64,000 bases of DNA from Chloroflexota bacterium (GTDB lineage: Bacteria > Chloroflexota > Anaerolineae > Anaerolineales > Anaerolineaceae): contig CP069394.1 in NCBI GenBank assembly GCA_016887485.1, forward strand, positions 744,001 through 808,000. Reading direction: 5' to 3'. Positions 3,762-63,044 of this stretch are shown here, piece after piece. Position numbers and translations under genes: made by a program. The notes below the pieces were generated by a model. It did no database searches and was not told where the DNA came from. It saw only the letters and a list, made by a program, of their open reading frames with translations. Position 1 is the stretch's first letter. Every line of letters starts with the position of its first letter.

Positions 3762-4178
3762 TTGACCAGAATCATCAAGAACTCAACGCCCGGTAAGGAA
3801 AGAAATCACCTGAGCAAAGCCATTGTCGTGACCATCCGGGAATTTATGCGTCAGACCGAACCGGATAACAATACCAGGGACATGATCGCATTCATCATTT
3901 TGGCTTTGCGAGAGATCGGCGATGGTATCGATAAGTCCGTCATAGCCTGGGAGAAACGGGGTTATTGGGTCAAAGCGGATAAATACCGCATGGAGTGGGC
4001 CTGGGTCATGCCATTCGAGCAGGATTTAATAAGATACTTCAAATCCGATGACTGGGGGCAAATCGCCGGCAAATTAGTGGACCTTATGGGGCGTTTTAGC
4101 AGTATTAAGGTCTCGGATAAGCATCGGATGGGCAAACCCTGGGTGGGGGCTTATAAAGAATATCTATCTGTCAAATAA
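3762..4178 (+). CDS. Conserved hypothetical protein, 138 aa
   Basis: No function recognised. The start is a TTG preceded at 7 nt by GGAG (in aaggagctccattg), which decides the start. The protein is soluble and has no signal peptide or membrane segment. It has a predicted helical core with FMRQTEPDNNTRDMIAFIILAL, then AWEKRGYWVKADKYRMEWAW. Tryptophan and charged residues are frequent. The style recalls small hypothetical proteins I associate with Anaerolineae, but I cannot name a family. It is followed after 38 bp by a membrane-anchored S41-type protease in the same direction. Confidence 0.7.
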   Translation: MTRIIKNSTPGKERNHLSKAIVVTIREFMRQTEPDNNTRDMIAFIILALREIGDGIDKSVIAWEKRGYWVKADKYRMEWAWVMPFEQDLIRYFKSDDWGQIAGKLVDLMGRFSSIKVSDKHRMGKPWVGAYKEYLSVK

Positions 4179-4216
4179 TTTTTAAGTTAACCAATTAATC
4201 AAAAATCGAGTTTATT

Positions 4217-5515
4217 ATGAAACTGTTGAATAAAAAGCCGGTTAGAATATTTGCTATTGTCATAATTGTTATTATTTTGGTCAGCTCCATATACTTTTTA
4301 ACGATGAATCCGCGGCGGGGAACCGTACGTGAATTTTATTCTTCTATGCCATTGGATGCTGTCCTGACCAAGAAGGAAGCTGAGCAGGACCTCACATATT
4401 TCTATAGCCACCTCAGATCTCGCCATCCAGGCTGGCTGGACGGCTCTCAGGCTCTGATACAGGCTGTCGAAGATCAATACAACAATGAGCTTGTAAATCT
4501 CAAGGACTCTGTGACGGTTCTTGAGCTATGGCAATCCGCTGGAAGGATCGCAGCCCAACTTAACGATGGCCACACATGGGTGAAATGGAAGAATCCCAAT
4601 ACATCGCTTTACATTGACAATTTTATGCAGCTCAGCGATTATGGCAGCCCTCTGGACATCAATGGTGTGCCAATCGGCGAAATATTGGATCATTATCTTT
4701 CGATGACCTCTTTTGAATTGCAGTTCTATGCTGAGGCAGTTTTTTATAAGACTGTCATTGTTGCTGAGCCATTATTGGTTTTTTGTGGCGTAGATACATC
4801 AGATGGTGTCGAAATGACTTTTGAGACCGAAGATGGCGAGCAGACCTTTCATTACGAGTTTGTACCGCTGGAGCGGGTTGTTCGATATGCAGGCGACGTG
4901 AATGATGAAAACTGGGTAGAGTATATCATTGACCTGGAAAATGATTTAGGGATCTTCACTCTGAGAAGCTGTGTTGATAATGAAGAATACCGGTCTGTGT
5001 TGGATTCTTTCTTCTCAGAAGTATTTGAGAATGATCTGGATAACGTGGTTGTAGATCTGCGAGGCAATGGGGGAGGGAACTCCAGAGTAGCAAATAAATT
5101 CTTGCAGTATTTAGATGTAGAGACTTATCGCTCCTGGGATAGTGCAATTCGTTATGGTTGGCTCCTTAAACAAAACAAAGATGTTGTCGTTAACAACCAT
5201 AAACAGCCTGTGACCTTCAGCGGAGACATCTACGTTCTTACTGACACTTTCACATACAGCGCTGCAATGGATTTTGCTATGCTAATTAGTGATAACGATC
5301 TGGGTGTATTAGTTGGAATGCCGTCAGGTAACCTTCCCGACAGTTATGGGGATTGTCTTTTCTTCCAAATGCCTAACTCTGGCCTAATGATCAGTATTTC
5401 GTATAAAAGTTGGCATCGGATTGATAGCTCACATGCTGGGGAGCCAGTCATGCCGGATTATGTGGTGCCATCAGCAGAGGCATTTGATAAAGCGCTAGAG
5501 TTGATCCAACACTGA
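4217..5515 (+). CDS. S41-family (C-terminal processing type) peptidase, membrane anchored
   Basis: 432 residues. An N-terminal hydrophobic anchor (about residues 11-30, FAIVIIVIILVSSIYFL) places the rest outside the cytoplasm. The C-terminal half carries S41 hallmarks: VVVDLRGNGGGNS, then GDIYVLTDTFTYSAAMDFA, where the Ser of TYSAA is the expected nucleophile, then VGMPSGNLPDSYGD. No PDZ domain is obvious. The family cleaves protein C-termini or peptides; some members are catalytically dead scaffolds. The substrate is unknown. The gene ends before a gene-poor stretch of 660 bp. Confidence 0.82.
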   Translation: MKLLNKKPVRIFAIVIIVIILVSSIYFLTMNPRRGTVREFYSSMPLDAVLTKKEAEQDLTYFYSHLRSRHPGWLDGSQALIQAVEDQYNNELVNLKDSVTVLELWQSAGRIAAQLNDGHTWVKWKNPNTSLYIDNFMQLSDYGSPLDINGVPIGEILDHYLSMTSFELQFYAEAVFYKTVIVAEPLLVFCGVDTSDGVEMTFETEDGEQTFHYEFVPLERVVRYAGDVNDENWVEYIIDLENDLGIFTLRSCVDNEEYRSVLDSFFSEVFENDLDNVVVDLRGNGGGNSRVANKFLQYLDVETYRSWDSAIRYGWLLKQNKDVVVNNHKQPVTFSGDIYVLTDTFTYSAAMDFAMLISDNDLGVLVGMPSGNLPDSYGDCLFFQMPNSGLMISISYKSWHRIDSSHAGEPVMPDYVVPSAEAFDKALELIQH

Positions 5516-50909: not shown

Positions 50910-51140
50910 CTGAGGGGCGATCTCCTTTCAGATTAAACATCATATTTATATCTATTTCGATAAATCTATAAAACTAGAATTATCTGACGAATATTAAATT
51001 TCTCCGAATTGAATCGGTTACACTTTATTCGAAATTCATTAATTTCACATGAATTTTTGAATAATTAATAAGAGATATCGTGTATAATAGTTTCTTGTTG
51101 ACGCCGGTTTATTGTGTTGAGATTTAATTTTGGAGGCCAA

Positions 51141-54100
51141 ATGACCCGCAAAGAAGAGATCTTTCACCACGCGCACCCTCGTAGCACCAAGCCCTTTTTC
51201 ATCATTATAATAATCTTAGTAACTGCATTTATTCCCATTTCCGGTTTTAATTTATCAGAAGTCAATGCAGAAGACTTAAACCTACCACCTGAGACTTACT
51301 ACGCTGGCACAGATACCGATCTTCGAGGCGACGACAGATATTCTTCTGCATTTAATATCGGGTTCGATTTTACTTATTTCGGAAACACCTATTCTACATT
51401 CCAGGCCACAACCAATGGCCTGATCTATTTCGGGGGTGGTGACTATTACCATTATGCAAATAGTCCGATTCCCAGCACAGGCACCCCAAACAACGCCATA
51501 TACGCTTTTTGGGATGATCTGTATTCCTATGACGATACGCAACTGGTACTTTACCGAACCATCGGCGAGGTAGGAAGCCGCGAATTGATAGTCCAATGGA
51601 CGAACTATGGTTACTTTGCTTCCGATCTGCCCATGGGAACATTTCAGGTCATTTTATATGAAGGCACAAACAACATCCGCATCCAGTACCGACAGTTATT
51701 AACAGCCTCCCGCTCATATGGCCAGTCTGCAACCATTGGCCTGGAAAATGCTGCCGGTACTGCCGCCGTTCAATATTCCTACGACACTGAAAGCTTGGAC
51801 CCTGAGCAATCCATCCTTTTCACACCCAGCGGTTCGACATACGTCTATAACAGCGGCGCTGCCTATGAAGGCGTATACCTTTATGCAGACTATCCCCCAC
51901 CAAACGTTCCCGCTCTGATTTCTCCCGCTAATGGTTCTGCTGGCGTTACCACCTCGCCGACTTTTGATTGGGATGACACTATCGGTGCAGATGCTTATAA
52001 TTTGGTTGTCTCAACCAATTCCAATCTCTCCTCCCCCATCATCAATCAAACCAATCTGAACGGAACTTCCTATTCTGCCAGCGGCTTATCTGTTGGTCCA
52101 ACCTATTATTGGGGTGTTGAGGCGGTCAACGCTTATGGCAGCACCTGGTCAAGCATTTGGAATTTCACAACAGCCGCAGGCAACTCAGCGCCGAATGATA
52201 TCATCCTCAGTAACAATTCCATCAGTCAGGGCCTCCCCTCTGGAACCACGGTTGGAGGCCTATCCACCACTGATCCGGACGCTGGCGATACACATACTTA
52301 CGCACTGGTAGCAGGCGCTGGCAGTTCGGATAACGCCAGTTTCTCCATCTCTAGCAGTACATTGCTAACAGCCGTCAGCCTCTCCGCCGGTGATTACACA
52401 ATCCGTATCCGCTCCACAGATAGCGGTTCCCCTGCGCTATACGTTGAAGAATCTTTCACCATCACCGTAACGGAAGCTAATGTTGCCCCCACGGATATCA
52501 GTTTATCATCTACAACAATCAACGAAAACGTCCCCGCAAACGCAACGGTTGGTACATTGTCAACCACGGACGCGAATAGCAGCGACAGTTTTACCTACAC
52601 TTTAGTCGCTGGCACTGGGGATACTGACAATAATGCTTTCGGCATTTCTGGATCGTCGCTCACAATTAACAGCAGCCCGGATTACGAAACAAAAAGCAGT
52701 TATTCCATCCGAATCCGTTCTACCGATCTTGGTGGCCTTTCTACTGACAAGCAATTCACGATTCAGGTCAATGATCTATCCGAAAACACGACAACAACTA
52801 TCACATCTGACACACCAGATCCATCTGTTGTTGGACAGAATTACACAGTCTCAGTATCCGTTGCACCATCTTCAGGTGCCGGTATGCCCTCCGGGAGTGT
52901 TCAAATCGGCGATGGTGTCAATTTCTGCACCGCATCTCTATCCGCAGGAACAGGGAGCTGTTCATTACCTTCGACATCGGCAGGCACTAAGACGATAACA
53001 GCCAACTATTCAGGAGTTACAGGATGGCTTATATCTTCCGATACCGAATCACATAGCGTGGCCAAAGCTGATACGACAACAACTATCACTTCCATCACCC
53101 CAGAGCCATCCGAATTGGGTGGTGACTATACTATTTACATGACGGTGACTACAAATGCACCGAGTACTAGTCTCATCTCCAGCGGCACGATTAATGTGAC
53201 CGTTGGTACAACCACGACTGGGGTCCCAATTACTAATGGCCAAGCCTCACTGCTTGTGACAGGAAATTCCACTGGAACTGTCACCATTATCGCGACCTAT
53301 TTAGGTGATGCCAGTCACTTCAACACATCCTCAGATACGGAAAACCATGAGGTCGAAGATACAACCCCTCCAGACGTTGAAATTGATCAGGAGACGGGAC
53401 AGAATGACCCAACAAATTCCAGTCCAATTCTATTCAATGTAGATTTCTCTGAGTCCGTGACTGGACTCACTGGCGATGATATCAGTTTCACTGGCAGCAC
53501 TGCACCCGGCACCCTGGCAGCCTCAGTTTTAGGATCAGGCGCCTCCTATTCTGTTTCGGTCAGCGGCATGACCGGCAGTGGTTTGGTCGTCATTTCCATC
53601 CCCGCCGATAGTGCTTTTGACCCATCCAATAACGGCAACACAGCCTCCAACAACATTGATAATTCTGTTACCTTTGATATCACCAACCCCACAGTCACCA
53701 TCGACCAATCTTCTGGTCAGGCTGATCCAACCGCATTGAGCCCAATTTTATTCGATGTCGAGTTCAGCGAGGCTGTGACAGGCTTCACAGCCAGCGATGT
53801 CAGTTTTGCTGGCAGCACTACTCCCGGCACTCTCTCCGGAGCCATCACTGGTTCTGGCACAACTTATCAGGTCTCAGTCAGCGGCATGACCGGATCTGGT
53901 ACTGTCGTCGTATCAATCCCAGCTAATTCAGCAATTGACCAGGTTGGAAATAACAACGAGGCCTCAACCAGCACTGATAATTCAGTAGAATATGATGTGA
54001 CCCCACCTACGGTCACCATCAATCAGGCCTCAACCCAATCAGACCCGACCAATGCATCACCAATCGTCTTTGATGTGGTATTTAGCGAATCGGTCACAGG

Positions 54101-55931
54101 TTTCACTGGCACCGATGTTGACCTGACCAGCAGCACAGCCCCTGGAACGCTCTCAGCGGCTGTCAGCGGCTCCGGAGCGACATATCAGGTCTCAGTATCA
54201 GGTATGACGGATAGCGGCTTAGTGATCGCCTCAATACCGTCTGACAGCGCTGTGGACGCAGCCAACAATGCCAACGAAGATTCCACCAGTACGGATAATA
54301 GCGTGATCTATGATGTGACGGATCCAACCGTTACCGTTGAACAAGCTCCAACCCAAATCGACCCCACTCGCTTTACGCCCATCAACTTTGAAGTCACTTT
54401 TGATGAACCTGTCACGGGCTTCGACCCCAGTGATATTGACTTTACCGGCAGCACGGCGCCCGGCACTCTCTCCGCTGCAATTGGCGGGACAGGGCCGATC
54501 TACAATGTCCTGGTGAGCGGGATGACCGACAGTGGCTTGATCGTTGTTTCAATTCCCGCCAATGCCGCTGTGGATGCCTCTGGCAACAATAACGAGGCTT
54601 CAACCAGTACGGATAACAGCGTTACCTATGATGTCACGCCGCCAACCGTCACAATCAATCAAGGCTCAACACAACCAGACCCAACCAACACAGAACCCAT
54701 CGTATTCGATGTCATATTCAGTGAAGAAGTCATTGGTTTTGAGGATACTGATTTGGTCGTTGCCGGCATGGTCAACCCACCAGTCATCGTCATTAATGGC
54801 TCCGGTGACACCTATACGGTTGAAATCACCGGCCTAACGGATGGCGAAACGGTTACCGTTGATATCAGCGAGAACTCGGTCGTGGATAACTCCGGTAATG
54901 AAAACAGCGCTTCGTCAAGCACCGATAACAGTGTATCCTACGACATCACCTCAATTCAAATCATGGAAGCAGGCGTCATTGGCTGGCCGGGCAATCTGGT
55001 CATTCAAAACGACAAGAAATATACCCGCAGGTTTACCGAAATTGAGATCAATTTCGACTCTGATGCCTATGATCCTCCTGAAAACGATGATCCAGATGAT
55101 GTGACCAATCCGGAAAATTATTACCTGCTCCAACCCGGAGATAACGGAGAATTCGATGTAGCTACCTGTGATGTTGCCCACAATCTTGAGTTAAGCGGCT
55201 TGGATGACATTGCTATTACCGTTGGTCCCGTCACTTATGAAAACAACGCAGGTGCTGGACCATTCATTGCCACACTCACAGTTAATAATGGCACCAACCT
55301 GCCACTTGGGAAATATCGGTTGATGATTTGCGGCTCAACCACCATCATGGATCTGGCCGAGAATCCTCTGAACGACGGTGAAGATGCCATTTTGGACTTC
55401 ACCCTCATCAAACTGCCGGATGAACTGCCTCTTACGGGCTTCAACCAGAGTGGTGTCACGACCCTTCCCGAACAAACACTATCGTCTGCTTACAATAGCT
55501 CCGGCATGGTACTCTCTTTGCCGGGGTTAGGTGTCAGCGCTCAAATTGTGGGCGTTCCGCTGGAAAGTGATGGCTGGAACACTTCCTGGCTGGGCAATGA
55601 TGCAGGTTTCCTTGAAGGCAGCGCTTTCCCAACCACGGTAGGCAACACCGTCATCACCGGCCATATCTGGACTTCGACGAACAAGCCAGGGATCTTCCTC
55701 GACCTGAATACGTTGAGGTTTGGTGACGAAGTTCGCATCTACGCCTGGGGCAGAGTGCATACCTACAAGGTGTTAAGCAATTACCTGGTCAGTGATACCA
55801 ACGTCTCGAATGTCATGCAAAGCGAAATTGCGGATTGGCTGACACTGCTGACCTGTGACGGCTACGATCCCGAAACCGGCACCTACGCCTACCGCAGAGT
55901 TGTCCGGGCAATTTTGGTGAGTATCGAATAG
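51141..55931 (+). CDS. Giant secreted Ig-repeat surface protein with LPLTG motif and C-terminal sortase domain
   Basis: 1596 residues from ATG 51141 (GGAGG 4 nt upstream). Signal peptide with hydrophobic core FFIIIIILVTAFIPISG and likely cleavage after VNA. Then: a nidogen-like beta region (about 40-230), a fibronectin-III-like domain, two cadherin-like domains, two Ig-like domains (VGQNYTVSVSVAPSSGAGMP), five tandem Ig-type repeats (742-1269), a further beta domain, the motif LPLTG (1429-1433), and a sortase-like domain with His1508 (ITGHIW), Cys1572 (LLTCDGY) and Arg1585/1586. No membrane segment follows. It is probably an adhesin or envelope scaffold, perhaps self-processing or cross-linking. 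A terminator follows. Confidence 0.88.
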   Translation: MTRKEEIFHHAHPRSTKPFFIIIIILVTAFIPISGFNLSEVNAEDLNLPPETYYAGTDTDLRGDDRYSSAFNIGFDFTYFGNTYSTFQATTNGLIYFGGGDYYHYANSPIPSTGTPNNAIYAFWDDLYSYDDTQLVLYRTIGEVGSRELIVQWTNYGYFASDLPMGTFQVILYEGTNNIRIQYRQLLTASRSYGQSATIGLENAAGTAAVQYSYDTESLDPEQSILFTPSGSTYVYNSGAAYEGVYLYADYPPPNVPALISPANGSAGVTTSPTFDWDDTIGADAYNLVVSTNSNLSSPIINQTNLNGTSYSASGLSVGPTYYWGVEAVNAYGSTWSSIWNFTTAAGNSAPNDIILSNNSISQGLPSGTTVGGLSTTDPDAGDTHTYALVAGAGSSDNASFSISSSTLLTAVSLSAGDYTIRIRSTDSGSPALYVEESFTITVTEANVAPTDISLSSTTINENVPANATVGTLSTTDANSSDSFTYTLVAGTGDTDNNAFGISGSSLTINSSPDYETKSSYSIRIRSTDLGGLSTDKQFTIQVNDLSENTTTTITSDTPDPSVVGQNYTVSVSVAPSSGAGMPSGSVQIGDGVNFCTASLSAGTGSCSLPSTSAGTKTITANYSGVTGWLISSDTESHSVAKADTTTTITSITPEPSELGGDYTIYMTVTTNAPSTSLISSGTINVTVGTTTTGVPITNGQASLLVTGNSTGTVTIIATYLGDASHFNTSSDTENHEVEDTTPPDVEIDQETGQNDPTNSSPILFNVDFSESVTGLTGDDISFTGSTAPGTLAASVLGSGASYSVSVSGMTGSGLVVISIPADSAFDPSNNGNTASNNIDNSVTFDITNPTVTIDQSSGQADPTALSPILFDVEFSEAVTGFTASDVSFAGSTTPGTLSGAITGSGTTYQVSVSGMTGSGTVVVSIPANSAIDQVGNNNEASTSTDNSVEYDVTPPTVTINQASTQSDPTNASPIVFDVVFSESVTGFTGTDVDLTSSTAPGTLSAAVSGSGATYQVSVSGMTDSGLVIASIPSDSAVDAANNANEDSTSTDNSVIYDVTDPTVTVEQAPTQIDPTRFTPINFEVTFDEPVTGFDPSDIDFTGSTAPGTLSAAIGGTGPIYNVLVSGMTDSGLIVVSIPANAAVDASGNNNEASTSTDNSVTYDVTPPTVTINQGSTQPDPTNTEPIVFDVIFSEEVIGFEDTDLVVAGMVNPPVIVINGSGDTYTVEITGLTDGETVTVDISENSVVDNSGNENSASSSTDNSVSYDITSIQIMEAGVIGWPGNLVIQNDKKYTRRFTEIEINFDSDAYDPPENDDPDDVTNPENYYLLQPGDNGEFDVATCDVAHNLELSGLDDIAITVGPVTYENNAGAGPFIATLTVNNGTNLPLGKYRLMICGSTTIMDLAENPLNDGEDAILDFTLIKLPDELPLTGFNQSGVTTLPEQTLSSAYNSSGMVLSLPGLGVSAQIVGVPLESDGWNTSWLGNDAGFLEGSAFPTTVGNTVITGHIWTSTNKPGIFLDLNTLRFGDEVRIYAWGRVHTYKVLSNYLVSDTNVSNVMQSEIADWLTLLTCDGYDPETGTYAYRRVVRAILVSIE
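53364..54947 (+). repeat. Five tandem 106-codon Ig-type repeats
   Basis: Units begin at 53364, 53682, 54000, 54318 and 54636 and are 318, 318, 318, 318 and 312 bp long. Each starts T-x-P-x-V and contains DPT..SPI.F.V.FSE.VTGF, then GSTAPGTL, VSGMT.SG, and ends STDNSV.YDV. The units diverge in DNA but keep exact length, apart from the slightly shorter and most divergent last unit. Confidence 0.9.
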
Positions 55932-57430: not shown

Positions 57431-58498
57431 TTGTACACTCATCAAAAGAACATCAAAGACACCATACTACGACCTTTGATCGCTGCAGTAATTGGATTAT
57501 TTGCAGGCGGTTTATTTGTCCTATTGACGGGCAATTCCCCTTTGAAGGCATTTCAGGTCCTCCTAAAAGCAGGCTTTGGTTGTAGCAGCGGCAATAATTG
57601 CGCCATCCTTACAACGCTTCAATTCGCAACCCCGCTGATCTTTATGGGCCTGTCTGCAGCGGTCGCCTTTCGGGTCGGTCTCTTTAGCATTGGTCAGATG
57701 GGACAAATGTTATTAGGCGCTGCAGCCGCTAATTGGATTGCCAGTCGATTTACCTTGCCATTCGTCATCCATCCTTTGACAGCCCTCATTGCAGCTATTC
57801 TATTCGGCATGACCTATGCCATCCTCCCCGCACTCCTAAAGCTCCATTTCAATATCAACGAGATCCTCTCGACCATCCTGTTGAATTACATCGCTCTCTA
57901 TCTGGTCGGTTTCATCCCTTCGGGTTTTGGACAGTGGATACCCGAAAGCGCCCGGATACCTTCATTGACACCAACAACCAAGTTAAACCTTGGATTCTTT
58001 ATCGCGCTCGCCATCGTCGCCTTATCGCTCATTTGGTTCTACCGAACCGCCTCCGGGTATGAGACCCGTATGTCCGGTGACAATAAGACTTTTGCGAAGT
58101 ATGGCGGTGTCAACTCCATTCGAGCCATCTATGTGGGTATGATGATTTCAGGTGCGCTGGCCGGTCTGGCAGGCGGGATCGAAATCCTGGGTGTTCATTA
58201 TCGTTTCGTGGATAATTTCACCAGTTCTGATGTCTTTGATGGCGTGATGGTTGCCCTGCTGGGGTCAGCCCACCCCATTGGGATATTGTTCTCATCCTTT
58301 GTCCTCGGTGGTGTCCGGCTGGCAGCCATGACTGGGCTCTCCATTCAATTGGGTATTCCCCGTTCCATCGGTGGAATGATTGTCTCAACAATGGTCATTG
58401 TGATGGGTGCAGAGGGTGTCTATACGAAGATAAAAGAAATCTTCACGAAAATACTCGCTAAATCCCAGAAACTTCTAACAAATAAAAAACCGAGTTGA
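57431..58498 (+). CDS. BMP/nucleoside-type ABC transporter permease (extra copy)
   Basis: 355 residues with about eight to ten membrane segments of the branched-chain/ribose permease family. FMGLSAAVAFRVGLFSIGQM and GQMLLGAAAANWIASRF are the typical core; SGALAGLAGGIEILGVHYRF follows. It is clearly homologous to the permease at 60358-61473, sharing the GF-C-S/C insert after the first helix, but is on the opposite strand and has no ATPase or binding protein beside it. The start TTG at 57431 is weakly supported. It probably pairs with the ATPase of the adjacent system. Confidence 0.85.
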   Translation: MYTHQKNIKDTILRPLIAAVIGLFAGGLFVLLTGNSPLKAFQVLLKAGFGCSSGNNCAILTTLQFATPLIFMGLSAAVAFRVGLFSIGQMGQMLLGAAAANWIASRFTLPFVIHPLTALIAAILFGMTYAILPALLKLHFNINEILSTILLNYIALYLVGFIPSGFGQWIPESARIPSLTPTTKLNLGFFIALAIVALSLIWFYRTASGYETRMSGDNKTFAKYGGVNSIRAIYVGMMISGALAGLAGGIEILGVHYRFVDNFTSSDVFDGVMVALLGSAHPIGILFSSFVLGGVRLAAMTGLSIQLGIPRSIGGMIVSTMVIVMGAEGVYTKIKEIFTKILAKSQKLLTNKKPS

Positions 58499-58520
58499 GA
58501 AATTCAACTCGGTTTTATTT
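58486..58520. terminator. Bidirectional terminator between convergent permease and phosphorylase genes
   Basis: AAAACCGAGTTGA / TCAACTCGGTTTT, a perfect 13-bp stem with a 5-nt loop, flanked by A-run and T-run. It overlaps the 3' end of the plus-strand permease gene. Confidence 0.92.
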
Positions 58521-58538
58521 TATCTATCGGAAGATCAT

Positions 58539-59267
58539 TTAGCCTGCATTGTCATTCTTGGCGATCGCCAGCATACTCTCCAGGGCAATGGTGATCATAT
58601 CCAACTCACCTTGCAGGTACTTTTCCTCACCCCAGACCGGTTTAATTTCATTATTCGTCCCATCAGAGGCATATAGAGCGCCAGTCCGCAGGCCGCGGAA
58701 TTGACCAACGATGAAAAGGGTATCGCTTTCCATTTCCACGGAAACCAAGCCTGCCTTTTTTAACAAGCCCGGTTCATAGAGCTCTCGTGGGCTGTAAAAG
58801 GCATCCCCAGCGATGCCCACACCAACGGTATATGGGATCTCAAGGGCAACTGCTGTTTTCACCAGGGTCTCCAGGACCTCGTAGGTGGGCACAGCAGGGA
58901 ATTCTATGGGTAGATAGGCATTGGCAGTGCCCCCTTCCCGCACAGTGCCGCTGGCGATGATAATATCGCCAGGTCCCTGGTCCTCCTGGAAAACGCCGCA
59001 GGACCCCACCCGTACAAAGGTGTCAGTACCCAAATTCGCCAGTTCTTCCATGCAAATCGCAACGGCTGGGCCGCCCATGCCGGTGCCACAGGAGGTCAGT
59101 TTCACACCCTTGTAATAGCCCGTGTAAACCACGATCCCACGATCATCAGCAACCTTCTCCATGTCATCAAATCGTTCCGCAATCCGTGCCGCCCGGCGTT
59201 GGGAGCCTGGACAAAGGACATAGCGGGATACCTGTTCAGGTTGTGCTTTAATATGGAATTCCATCAA
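58539..59267 (-). CDS. Nucleoside phosphorylase (uridine phosphorylase type)
   Basis: 242 residues of the PNP/UDP family. SCGTGMGGPAVAICMEELAN binds phosphate/ribose; VRVGSCGVFQEDQGPGDIII and GLVSVEMESDTLFIVGQFRG (the EMES ribose-binding element) are typical of trimeric-hexameric NP-I enzymes. It cleaves a nucleoside with phosphate to base and (deoxy)ribose 1-phosphate. Its place at the end of a nucleoside importer operon fits salvage of imported nucleosides. Uridine versus purine preference cannot be fixed from sequence here. Confidence 0.9.
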   Translation of the reverse strand: MMEFHIKAQPEQVSRYVLCPGSQRRAARIAERFDDMEKVADDRGIVVYTGYYKGVKLTSCGTGMGGPAVAICMEELANLGTDTFVRVGSCGVFQEDQGPGDIIIASGTVREGGTANAYLPIEFPAVPTYEVLETLVKTAVALEIPYTVGVGIAGDAFYSPRELYEPGLLKKAGLVSVEMESDTLFIVGQFRGLRTGALYASDGTNNEIKPVWGEEKYLQGELDMITIALESMLAIAKNDNAG

Positions 59268-59341
59268 TCTCTCCTTTTGAAGTATTAAAGCAAGCCCCGG
59301 TTCTCACCGAGGCTCGCCATGTTCAAACAATAACTTACAGA

Positions 59342-60361
59342 CTATTCAGCATCAACGGGTTCAGCTTCCTTGTGAGTTTGCATCTCTCGTGAGCTGAAAT
59401 ATTTCCGTTTATTGATCAATGTAGCAAGTTTGGCCCGCAGGGCAACCAACACCAAGGCGACAATCGTCGCGATGAAAGGCAGCACCTGCACCAGGCTTGG
59501 CGGAAGTTCAGTCACGTTCTGAAGCCGGATAGCTGCTGCATCTGCAAAGCCAAAGAACAGCCCCGAGAAATAAACACCAATCGGATGGTTGAAGCCAAAG
59601 AGGGCTGCTGAAATGCCCAACCAGCCTCGGCCATTACTCATATTACGGGTGAAGAGGGTCAAATGCCCAACCGAAAGGAAAGCACCACCAAGGGCTGCCA
59701 GTGCGCCACTGATCACCAGGGCAAAGATCTGCACCCGGTTCACGTTGATGCCAACCGTGCGAGCCGCTTCGATATTCTCACCAACGGCGCGGATATGGCG
59801 GCCAAACTTCGTGTGGAACAGGACAAAATATCCTACGATGCTGAGGACGACCGCTGCGTATACGATGATGTTATAACCACTCAGCAGTTCACCAAGGACT
59901 GGGATATTCTTGATAACTGGCAACTCAATATCCGGTAGCTGAACAATGCTGGGATCGGACCAGGTACCCACCTGGCCGAACATCACACGCATCATAAAGA
60001 CGGTCAGTTCCAGCAACATCAGGTTGATGGCAATTGCCAGGATCACCAGGTTCACCTTATATTTGATGTAAAGGAAGGCAAAGAAAGCGCCCAACAGACC
60101 GCCCGAGAGCATGGCTACAACCAGTGCCAGATAGGTACTCGCAACCGGTGGCATTGGCAGGAACGGGTTATGCTGAATGTAATAGGCGCTGATGATTCCC
60201 AGGAACGCGCCCAGAAGCATTTTCCCTTCCAGTGCAAGGTTCAACACACCTGCCCGGTTACAAATTGCGCCACCTAAAGCTGCCAGGATGATTGGTGTTC
60301 CCAGGCGAATGGCACTAGAAAATAACGGTATGGTGAAGAAGTTAAGGAAATCCTGCATCAT
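59342..60361 (-). CDS. Nucleoside ABC transporter permease (BmpD/NupQ type)
   Basis: 339 residues, membrane protein of the branched-chain permease family. N-terminal FSSAIRLGTPIILAALGGAI, CNRAGVLNLALEGKMLLGAF and the C-terminal ALGGAFLSVGHLTLFTRNMS are typical of BMP-system second permeases. The start overlaps the stop of the neighbouring permease by 4 nt (ATGA), showing translational coupling. It forms the channel with the other permease. Confidence 0.9.
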   Translation of the reverse strand: MMQDFLNFFTIPLFSSAIRLGTPIILAALGGAICNRAGVLNLALEGKMLLGAFLGIISAYYIQHNPFLPMPPVASTYLALVVAMLSGGLLGAFFAFLYIKYKVNLVILAIAINLMLLELTVFMMRVMFGQVGTWSDPSIVQLPDIELPVIKNIPVLGELLSGYNIIVYAAVVLSIVGYFVLFHTKFGRHIRAVGENIEAARTVGINVNRVQIFALVISGALAALGGAFLSVGHLTLFTRNMSNGRGWLGISAALFGFNHPIGVYFSGLFFGFADAAAIRLQNVTELPPSLVQVLPFIATIVALVLVALRAKLATLINKRKYFSSREMQTHKEAEPVDAE

Positions 60362-61473
60362 TCACCTCCTTCCTTGATGGCTTTTCTCTCTTTGAATTTA
60401 GCAACTTTGTTACGGACCCAATTGATGCCGCCGAGGAAGAAATTATCCGAAGCAACAAAGAGGATGATGAATGCGATGATCACACCGCCTAATTCTCTTG
60501 GCACTTTGAGCTGAATTTGCAGTCCCAGTTGAGCGCCTAAACGGACACCAGCAAACAGGATGGCAACAATCACCACGCCGATTGGATGGGTCTGGCCCAA
60601 AATGGCCACACTAACGCCATCAAAACCAAGGCCAGTGGAATAACCGGTCATGATCCGGTGATTCACGCCCATTACCTCAATCGCACCAGCCAACCCGGCC
60701 AAGGCACCGCTGATAATCATGCCGCGTAAGGCTGCTTTTTCATTCTTTATGCCGCCATATTTGGCAAATCGAGGTGCGTTACCTGACATCCGCTGTTCGT
60801 ATCCGGTGGAAGTACGCCACAAGAGGAAGTAAATGACCGCCGCCATGATTATGGCGATCACAAAACCCACTCCCCAACGTGAGCTAGGCAGGAACGAAGG
60901 CAACCATGCGGTTTCTTTGATGATAAATGAGTGAGCAGCTGAACCCGCATCCGCACGCAGAGGGAAGTTCACCACCCACTCCAGAAATAGAATCGCGACC
61001 TCATTCAGCATGATCGTCGAAATCAGCTCATTAACCCCAAGTTTCACCTTTAAAACACCGGGGATGTATCCATATAGGCCACCGATCACCACCGCTGCCA
61101 AAATAATGACAATGGGATGAATGACATAAGGGAGGTCCAGGGCATGGCCCAGCCAGGCTGCTGTGACCGCACCTAGCATCATTTGGCCTTCCTGACCGAG
61201 ACTGAACACACCCGTTCTGAATGCTACCAGGGCAGAAAGCCCCGTCAAAATCAGCGGTGTAGACCGTTCTAGGGTGGTCACGAAGGTACAGCGTTGCAAG
61301 CTTTCACAGTTAAAGCCGGAATTAAAAAGGACTTTGTATGCATCCAATGGTGATTTTCCAGTCGTCAAGACTAACAATGCAGCCACGATCAAACCGGAGA
61401 CAATAGCCAGCACAGGGACTAGCAGTGCATTTGTAAATTTCTTCTTTTTTTCTATATCCATATTGTCCCTCAC
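60358..61473 (-). CDS. Nucleoside ABC transporter permease (BmpC/NupP type)
   Basis: 371 residues. LILTGLSALVAFRTGVFSLG, QEGQMMLGAVTAAWLG and SGALAGLAGAIEVMGVNHRI mark the first permease of BMP-type nucleoside importers. A Cys-containing extracytoplasmic loop (SGFNCESLQRCTFVTTLERS) follows the first helix; the convergent paralogue at 57431 has a similar loop. The start is 2 nt after the ATPase gene, so expression is coupled. Confidence 0.9.
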   Translation of the reverse strand: MRDNMDIEKKKKFTNALLVPVLAIVSGLIVAALLVLTTGKSPLDAYKVLFNSGFNCESLQRCTFVTTLERSTPLILTGLSALVAFRTGVFSLGQEGQMMLGAVTAAWLGHALDLPYVIHPIVIILAAVVIGGLYGYIPGVLKVKLGVNELISTIMLNEVAILFLEWVVNFPLRADAGSAAHSFIIKETAWLPSFLPSSRWGVGFVIAIIMAAVIYFLLWRTSTGYEQRMSGNAPRFAKYGGIKNEKAALRGMIISGALAGLAGAIEVMGVNHRIMTGYSTGLGFDGVSVAILGQTHPIGVVIVAILFAGVRLGAQLGLQIQLKVPRELGGVIIAFIILFVASDNFFLGGINWVRNKVAKFKERKAIKEGGE

Positions 61474-61475
61474 CT

Positions 61476-63044
61476 CTATGATGCATCTGAAGCAGAAACA
61501 TGATTATTCTTGGCGTTCTCAATATCTTCCAAAGACCCGCCAGCCATTAGCACCCCCAGTTTCTCTTCAGTAACATCCTTGATATCGAATTCACCGTTAA
61601 TCTTGCCACGGTAAATCACGTCAACGCGATCGCTCAGGGACATAATCTCATCCAGCTCAACAGAGACAAGCAGAATAGCCGCCCCTCTGTCCCTCGCCTC
61701 AATCAAAGTCTTATGGACGAACTCAATGCTGCCGACATCCAGCCCACGAGTGGGCTGATTGGCAATAATGAACTCAGGCTTATTAGATAGTTCACGCCCA
61801 ACAACAATCTTTTGCATATTGCCACCAGATAGTGTGTCCACACTACCACCTGGTTTTGCACCATGCACATCAAAATCATTGATGATCTGTCCAGCCAGAT
61901 CCGCTACTTTTTTGCGGCGAATAAAACCAAATTTGTTATAAACCTTATCACGCTGGCGGCTTAAGAGGACATTTTCATCCATATCTGTGTTCAGATTCAA
62001 CCCCATATGGATCCGATCTTCCGGAATATGCCCCATACCATGATGCCTCCGAACGTTTACCGAGGCATTGGTTACATCCTCACCATCCAGCTTAATCGAC
62101 CCAAGCTCAACCGGTCGTATACCTGAGATCGCCTCAACCAATTCCGTCTGACCGTTCCCACTAACCCCGGCGACGCCGAGGATTTCACCAGAGCGAACAT
62201 TTAGAGACAGATCAGTCACAACAGGATAACCGTTATCAGAAGCGACGGTGATTCCATCCGCTTCCAAAACAAGGCCTCCGGGTTTTGCGGGCTCTTTCTT
62301 CACTCTGAACAGAACTTCCCGCCCAACCATCATCCGAGCCATCTCGGGGATGTCAGTGTCGGCGACATTTTTAGTCCCAACGTTCTTACCATCCCGCATC
62401 ACTGTCACCCGGTCAGCAACTTCAACCACCTCAATCAGTTTATGAGTGATGAAGATAATGGTGTGCCCCTGGTCTTCCGATAGCCTTTTAACCACAACCA
62501 TCAGGTCACGAACTTCCTGAGGAGTCAGGACAGCAGTGGGTTCATCCAGAACCAGGATCTTTGTATCACGTTGCAGTGTTTTGAGAATTTCCACCCTTTG
62601 TTGCATACCGACAGGCAATTCCGCTACTTTTGCTCGCGGATCAACTGGCAATCCAAATTTCTTTGATAATGCTTCCACCTGCTCAATCTCATCACGCTGT
62701 TTGAGCCAACCAAACTTGTTCGGTTCCATACCCAGCATAATATTCTGAGCAACTGTAAAAGATGGCACCAGCTTAAAGTGTTGGTGAACCATACCAATGC
62801 CCAGCCGGATGGCATCATCCGGATGATTGATATGGGCCAGTTCCTCTTGAATGAAAATTTCTCCGGCATCAGGCTTGATCAAACCATAGAGGATGTTCAT
62901 CAATGTGGTTTTTCCGGCGCCATTCTCTCCCACCAGCGCGTGAATTTCGCCTTCTTTCACAGAAAAATGAACATCATTATTTGCCTGGACTTCAGTTGAG
63001 GGAAAATATTTGGAAATACCGATTAACTCTACTGCGTTAGCCAT
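61476..63044 (-). CDS. Nucleoside ABC transporter ATP-binding protein (two ABC domains)
   Basis: 522 residues with duplicated ABC modules, as in sugar and BMP-type importers. Module 1: Walker A VGENGAGKTTLMNILYGLIK, signature LPVGMQQRVEILKTL, Walker B ILVLDEPTAVL. Module 2: GVSGNGQTELVEAISG (degenerate Walker A), signature LSGGNMQKIVVGREL and IIANQPTRGLDVGS. It powers uptake with the two permeases. It follows the binding-protein gene after 68 bp containing a hairpin. Confidence 0.93.
   Translation of the reverse strand: MANAVELIGISKYFPSTEVQANNDVHFSVKEGEIHALVGENGAGKTTLMNILYGLIKPDAGEIFIQEELAHINHPDDAIRLGIGMVHQHFKLVPSFTVAQNIMLGMEPNKFGWLKQRDEIEQVEALSKKFGLPVDPRAKVAELPVGMQQRVEILKTLQRDTKILVLDEPTAVLTPQEVRDLMVVVKRLSEDQGHTIIFITHKLIEVVEVADRVTVMRDGKNVGTKNVADTDIPEMARMMVGREVLFRVKKEPAKPGGLVLEADGITVASDNGYPVVTDLSLNVRSGEILGVAGVSGNGQTELVEAISGIRPVELGSIKLDGEDVTNASVNVRRHHGMGHIPEDRIHMGLNLNTDMDENVLLSRQRDKVYNKFGFIRRKKVADLAGQIINDFDVHGAKPGGSVDTLSGGNMQKIVVGRELSNKPEFIIANQPTRGLDVGSIEFVHKTLIEARDRGAAILLVSVELDEIMSLSDRVDVIYRGKINGEFDIKDVTEEKLGVLMAGGSLEDIENAKNNHVSASDAS

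Follow-up and report, generated by a model that had tools for sequence, protein, structure and literature searches.

A predicted sortase fused to an LPxTG motif in a large secreted protein of Anaerolineales: a candidate self-sorting surface protein

A gene of a Chloroflexota bacterium belonging to the Anaerolineales (assembly GCA_016887485.1, contig CP069394.1) encodes a large secreted protein that ends in a predicted sortase with an LPLTG motif just ahead of it. We propose that this is probably a self-sorting surface protein, that is, one which would serve as the substrate of its own sortase and attach itself to an amine of the cell envelope. This proposal is backed by the architecture of the protein, the conservation of the motif, its near-fixed distance to the enzyme, the sortase fold, the order of the motif in the structural model and the lone fused sortases of the host genome, as shown below.

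Architecture and conservation of the fused module

In the window, meaning the whole stretch of 64,000 nucleotides that was analysed, the gene and its parts are laid out as follows.

51141..55931, + strand: whole gene (open reading frame) for a secreted protein of 1596 residues with Pfam domains Cadherin, Big_3_5, Big_12 (five copies) and Sortase
51141..51269, + strand: probable signal peptide, residues 1-43, with the sole hydrophobic 19-residue stretch (from residue 18)
54960..55412, + strand: Ig-like domain, about residues 1274-1424, directly before the motif (from the strands of the AlphaFold model of 1250-1596 and from BLAST relatives)
55425..55439, + strand: LPLTG motif, residues 1429-1433, followed by Phe1434 (from sequence and conservation)
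55440..55514, + strand: linker between motif and sortase, residues 1434-1458, whose pattern FAPGxxTxLPxQP....Y is kept in relatives
55515..55916, + strand: sortase domain PF04203, residues 1459-1592 (Pfam match, fold matches)
55662..55664, + strand: catalytic-type His1508, kept in 125/125 aligned modules
55854..55856, + strand: catalytic-type Cys1572, within TLLTC (1568-1572), kept in 124/124 aligned modules
55893..55895, + strand: catalytic-type Arg1585, kept in 121/122 aligned modules

An alternative GTG start at 51114 would add nine residues, and the cleavage site of the signal peptide (VNA-ED) is a guess made by eye. BLAST relatives of the Ig-like domain preceding the motif occur in other fused proteins. 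The initial annotation had described the C-terminus as sortase-like, and PF04203 indeed matches residues 1459-1592 (E 1.6e-17; 63.9 bits against a cut-off of 26.6), with the His, the Cys and the Arg located where they had been placed. It had left the choice between Arg1585 and Arg1586 open; the former is the conserved one, residue 1586 being Arg in only 59 of 122 aligned modules. The LPLTG motif does lie ahead of the sortase domain and begins 30 residues upstream of its start, and the distance from motif to His, previously put at about 75 residues, is 79 when counted from the Leu of LPLTG. The chain ends four residues past the sortase domain and 24 past the Cys. A hydropathy scan of the whole protein found a mean of at least 1.8 only in the N-terminal 19-residue stretch that begins at residue 18. 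Since this sole hydrophobic stretch is N-terminal, no membrane helix follows the motif, in agreement with what had been noted earlier.

By eye, the gene upstream looks like a LacI-type regulator and the one downstream like a uracil-DNA glycosylase; neither indicates sorting. Nucleoside-type ABC transporter genes and a nucleoside-phosphorylase-like gene are clustered at 57431-63044 of the window, again by eye.

Conservation was followed in 125 distinct modules, including a few short or divergent ones; alignments A2, A3 and A4 contain 108, 104 and 30 modules, after duplicates, fragments and divergent rows had been dropped. In this set, which is biased towards the motif because some modules were fetched by the LPxTGF pattern (the PF04203 census presented below is not), the motif shows Pro in 121/122, Thr in 117/121 (Ser in three more), Gly in 117/122 and Phe in 116/121 modules. 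The Leu is somewhat freer (94/122, with Ile in 16 and Met in 4), and the X position and the three residues preceding the Leu are unconstrained. Both the motif and the Cys are thus kept in homologues, a check that the initial annotation had called for. With Pro, Thr, Gly and Phe kept in the manner of the catalytic residues and X left free, conservation appears as in a true sorting motif, i.e. a substrate, and unlike that of a D-P-aromatic lid. The linker had also been suggested to have evolved from a sorting signal. That the motif is such a functionless relic, left in a linker by an ancestral signal, now seems highly improbable, since its conservation comes close to that of the catalytic residues, whereas X and the positions ahead of the Leu vary freely; a relic or chance motif was rejected on the conservation in the aligned modules.

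The spacing is equally constrained. In all 40 pattern sites that adjoin a sortase, 27-30 residues separate the start of the motif from the start of the domain (87 bases in 20 sites, 90 in 16, 84 in 3 and 81 in 1). Two loci, L176 and L177, have LPxTGF in tandem, at distances of 11 and 22 residues, ahead of the sortase domain, and on a metagenome contig (L038, ~4008-4433) a frame break lies between LPSTGF and the sortase domain.

Fused sortases in the host genome and its relatives

The host genome (2.9 Mb, two contigs, 95% complete) contains three PF04203 domains. Each ends a large frame, of 1609, 1362 or 2587 residues, and each is preceded by LPxTGF (ELPLTGF, ILPETGF and ELPQTGF). The N-terminal parts of these proteins differ (cadherin/Big_12; fn3/GH85_C; DUF7507/DUF7933/DUF11), and the other two modules share 42% and 40% identity with that of the window; judging from these sequences, the sortase module looks like a shared C-terminal cassette. 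The Pfam search of the host genome detected no sortase beyond the three fused ones, which makes self-processing the simplest reading. Only the three fused proteins provide a C-terminal coding context among the 16 LPxTGF DNA sites of this genome, so that no free LPxTGF substrate was found there, and no Gram_pos_anchor (PF00746) match exceeds the cut-off in it, weak matches starting at E 0.1. Within the host genus the module is patchy, since 13 of 15 other genomes (G001-G015), several of them just 66-81% complete, have no PF04203 match at E 0.01 among the matches listed.

Free substrates were also sought in 61 related genomes with a strict pattern, LPxTGFxP plus two purines, which covers Phe-containing LPxTG only. 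It returned 56 sites, 40 of which adjoin a sortase; the remaining 16 were all read, and none is a classical C-terminal anchor. PF00746 exceeds its cut-off in four of these relatives (G004, G038, G045 and G051). In one of them (L276, G038:C442), a classical-looking anchor with LPQTG, a hydrophobic stretch and a basic end lies near a separate sortase, so the ordinary two-protein arrangement does occur in the order of the host.

A census of PF04203, whose profile excludes the motif, gave 150 domains among the matches listed for the 61 genomes, the weakest hits being missing; domain types were set by regular expressions around the Cys together with frame length. Sixty of these domains are C-terminal in large frames and fall outside three other sequence types. 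They are preceded by an exact LPxTG in 50 cases, by a near form ([IM]PxTG, LPASG) in nine and by neither in one (L195); L177 also has an exact motif but is truncated by the contig end. The motif is absent from all 89 remaining domains, which include five large frames of other types and four fragments with little or no readable upstream sequence (L210, L212, L216 and L218). As 59 of the 60 large-frame domains of this type have the motif and none of the 89 others do, among the matches listed, the arrangement of motif and sortase is real and beyond chance. A rapidly built tree of 146 domains (four fragments being dropped from the 150), which has few columns and long branches, requires two changes for the 60 motif-bearing rows, and a single origin of these domains would be compatible with it.

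A pattern scan of a collection of 84,980 species retrieved 46 loci, whose titles name Chloroflexota or genera of the Anaerolineaceae and include the strains Longilinea arvoryzae KOME-1 and Levilinea saccharolytica KIBI-1. Among 301 genomes sampled from the phylum, every match with an E-value of 1e-35 or lower falls in the host's order, except for one in G328 (L099), which has no motif.

Several relatives carry sortases of other types. The TLISCYP sortase, of ~300 residues with a conserved SGHTPP..EIPEHLRPLVQ segment (e.g. L004-L014, L016-L033), is present as a single copy in most sortase-bearing relatives, and is not among the matches listed for the host genome or for its genus mates G001 and G014. 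At L207 (G045:C134:9500-27500), six TCxNW-like sortase hits follow one another within 18 kb; one of these sortases ends a frame of ~2230 residues, and none of the six has LPxTG directly before it.

Fused modules were found in 26 of the 61 genomes among the matches listed. As 25 of these 26 also have another sortase-domain hit (matches listed), mostly of the TLISCYP type, processing in trans is possible in them: the LPxTG could be cut by a separate cellular sortase or by another copy of the protein, which would yield cross-linked or polymerised proteins. The presence of several copies per genome, up to seven among the matches listed, would also suit such a scheme. We nevertheless regard it as unlikely. 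The host genome contains only fused sortases according to Pfam, 19 genomes have the TLISCYP type with no fused module among the matches listed, and neither a spacing of 27-30 residues nor an ordered motif would be necessary in a substrate cut in trans.

Predicted structure and a possible self-sorting mechanism

The initial annotation had proposed structure prediction as a check, and the predicted fold is that of a sortase (VIA-align Z up to 18). AlphaFold2 models had a mean pLDDT of 90.5 for residues 1250-1596 and 96.0 for residues 1421-1596. The ten-residue blocks containing the motif scored 94 and 95 in the long model, which includes the Ig domain, and 84 and 94 in the short one, which lacks it; the predicted order of the motif is therefore not due solely to the Ig domain. 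With the short model, VIA-align listed 50 rows at Z 15.4-18.1, in which 16 of the 17 SrtC-named rows and two Corynebacterium diphtheriae SrtA rows align from model residue 1, the SrtC exception (3re9) having no alignment over the lid part, and the other 31 rows start at 23-33; a sortase class missing from these rows is not thereby excluded. The model supports the view that the motif segment runs along the same course as the lid over the active site in pilus sortases. Its register on the lid is unsettled in the models, because the entries differ by zero to seven residues. In an ungapped reading, P1430 coincides with the lid Pro in 2w1j (P59) and 4g1j (P91), and others deviate by one residue (4g1h, 3g66, 2xwg) up to seven (3tbe), while a sequence profile places the APG that follows the motif on the DPF of 24rr. 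A profile of the motif and linker alone, built from 30 chosen rows, gave two weak and seemingly unrelated PDB matches (E 0.65 and 2).

This path raises the possibility that the LPxTG is an autoinhibitory lid, never cut, which occupies the groove like the DPX lid of class C and gives way to other substrates once displaced. In class C the lid overlaps SrtA's LPAT peptide and mimics bound LPXTG, and it is described as a pseudo-substrate in the part of PMC3493515 drawn on here. Yet a lid has no need of a scissile bond, of the Thr and Gly that are kept or of a free X, and no other LPxTGF protein or classical anchor was found in the host genome to serve as a substrate. An uncut lid therefore strikes us as quite improbable.

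For the self-sorting that we favour, we infer a course of cleavage, acyl-enzyme formation, transfer to an acceptor and release. The protein would be exported via Sec by its signal peptide and, being translocated from its N- to its C-terminus, would fold its sortase last, outside the cell. The sortase would bind the LPxTG of its own chain in cis, or the one in a neighbouring copy, and cut between Thr and Gly, the long N-terminal part being held as a Thr-Cys thioester. An envelope amine, most probably one of peptidoglycan, would then receive this part, and the sortase domain, a small fragment now beginning with Gly-Phe, would be released. A membrane helix and a basic tail normally keep a substrate near its separate sortase; both could be dispensable here because enzyme and substrate travel together. 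A peptidoglycan amine is a plausible acceptor. The host genome has a PF00953 glycosyltransferase and two FemAB-type genes; FemAB, a possible source of the acceptor amine, is non-discriminating, as it occurs in 58 of the 61 relatives.

More tentatively, with the chances close to even but somewhat against, these proteins could form a natural class in Anaerolineales: single-turnover, self-anchoring proteins in which the lid has turned into a substrate and the thioester is preloaded, each acting as its own ligase and joining itself to the envelope, or to any amine it meets, with neither a housekeeping sortase nor a membrane anchor. If self-sorting holds true, one polypeptide alone would suffice for covalent surface display, which would explain how these Chloroflexota could attach giant surface proteins without classical sorting signals. 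Engineered sortase tags that cleave themselves would then have a natural counterpart, and the function of the sortase lid could be tested directly, the lid being here a real substrate and not a mimic.

Comparison with known sortases and sorting signals

By profile and fold (PF04203, TIGR01076, VIA-align) the domain belongs with the sortase superfamily (C60), and its sequence contains the His, Cys and Arg as well as the TLxTC signature; it is a predicted sortase, for which transpeptidase activity may be inferred. Among NCBIfam models only the generic TIGR01076 passes (46.5 against 39.35 bits). The class models tried on the window module all stay below their cut-offs (C 49.7/160, F 46.7/166, GN 31.2/158.25, E 30.5/160 and D 30.0/165 bits). 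The sortase fold is already known. Among the matches listed in the CC-licensed PMC literature, none describes a sortase that is naturally joined to a motif of its own, and the part of a fibrillar adhesin survey that was available (PMC8286594) does not mention Chloroflexi.

Canonical LPXTG surface proteins likewise carry the motif near the C-terminus of a large secreted protein, but continue with a hydrophobic stretch and a charged tail. The window protein has LPXTG (1429-1433) without either of these, and the enzyme follows the motif instead. Purification tags exist in the order cargo-LPxTG-sortase. Self-cleaving tags (srtA-LPETG-target, BISOP) similarly combine sortase, LPxTG and cargo in one self-cutting chain, although, in the excerpt of PMC2901362 concerned, these are engineered and of the opposite order, with the enzyme first, then motif and cargo.

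Class C pilus sortases, such as Streptococcus pneumoniae SrtC1 (2W1J) and GBS SrtC1/SrtC2 (4G1J/4G1H), share the common fold, and the segment before their first strand covers the active site and mimics LPXTG (PMC3493515, same part); the window module aligns there. They are separate membrane enzymes acting on pilins and have a D-P-aromatic lid, whereas here the enzyme is the C-terminus of an exoprotein and the segment contains LPxTGF, with no D-P-aromatic motif. The definition of class C in the portion of PMC13257024 used further includes a C-terminal hydrophobic domain after TLXTC, and the window protein has no stretch of mean hydropathy 1.8 or more at that place. The N-terminal appendage of Bacillus anthracis SrtA (2KW8) also regulates access to the active site; this enzyme, which VIA-align matches from residue 176 of the longer model and which is not among the short-model rows, is not fused to a substrate, and the part of PMC8361268 consulted reports no LPxTG in the appendage.

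The GBS SrtC1 variant in which KDPYS was changed to IPNTG (3RBJ) likewise has a sorting motif at the lid place, before the catalytic domain. According to the part of PMC3166054 consulted, it differs from the window protein in being an artificial Cys mutant with no exoprotein, and its motif is disordered in the crystal, the active site being empty; a sorting motif at the lid place thus does not bind by itself. Our family profile extends into the N-terminal part of 3RBJ, with a match over profile positions 7-166, whereas in the parent 3RBI the match begins at 65, and the score of 3RBJ (49.2 bits) is below that of the parent (52.2 bits). The closest natural system is the lid of class C sortases, and the closest artificial ones are this IPNTG lid mutant and the self-cleaving sortase tags.
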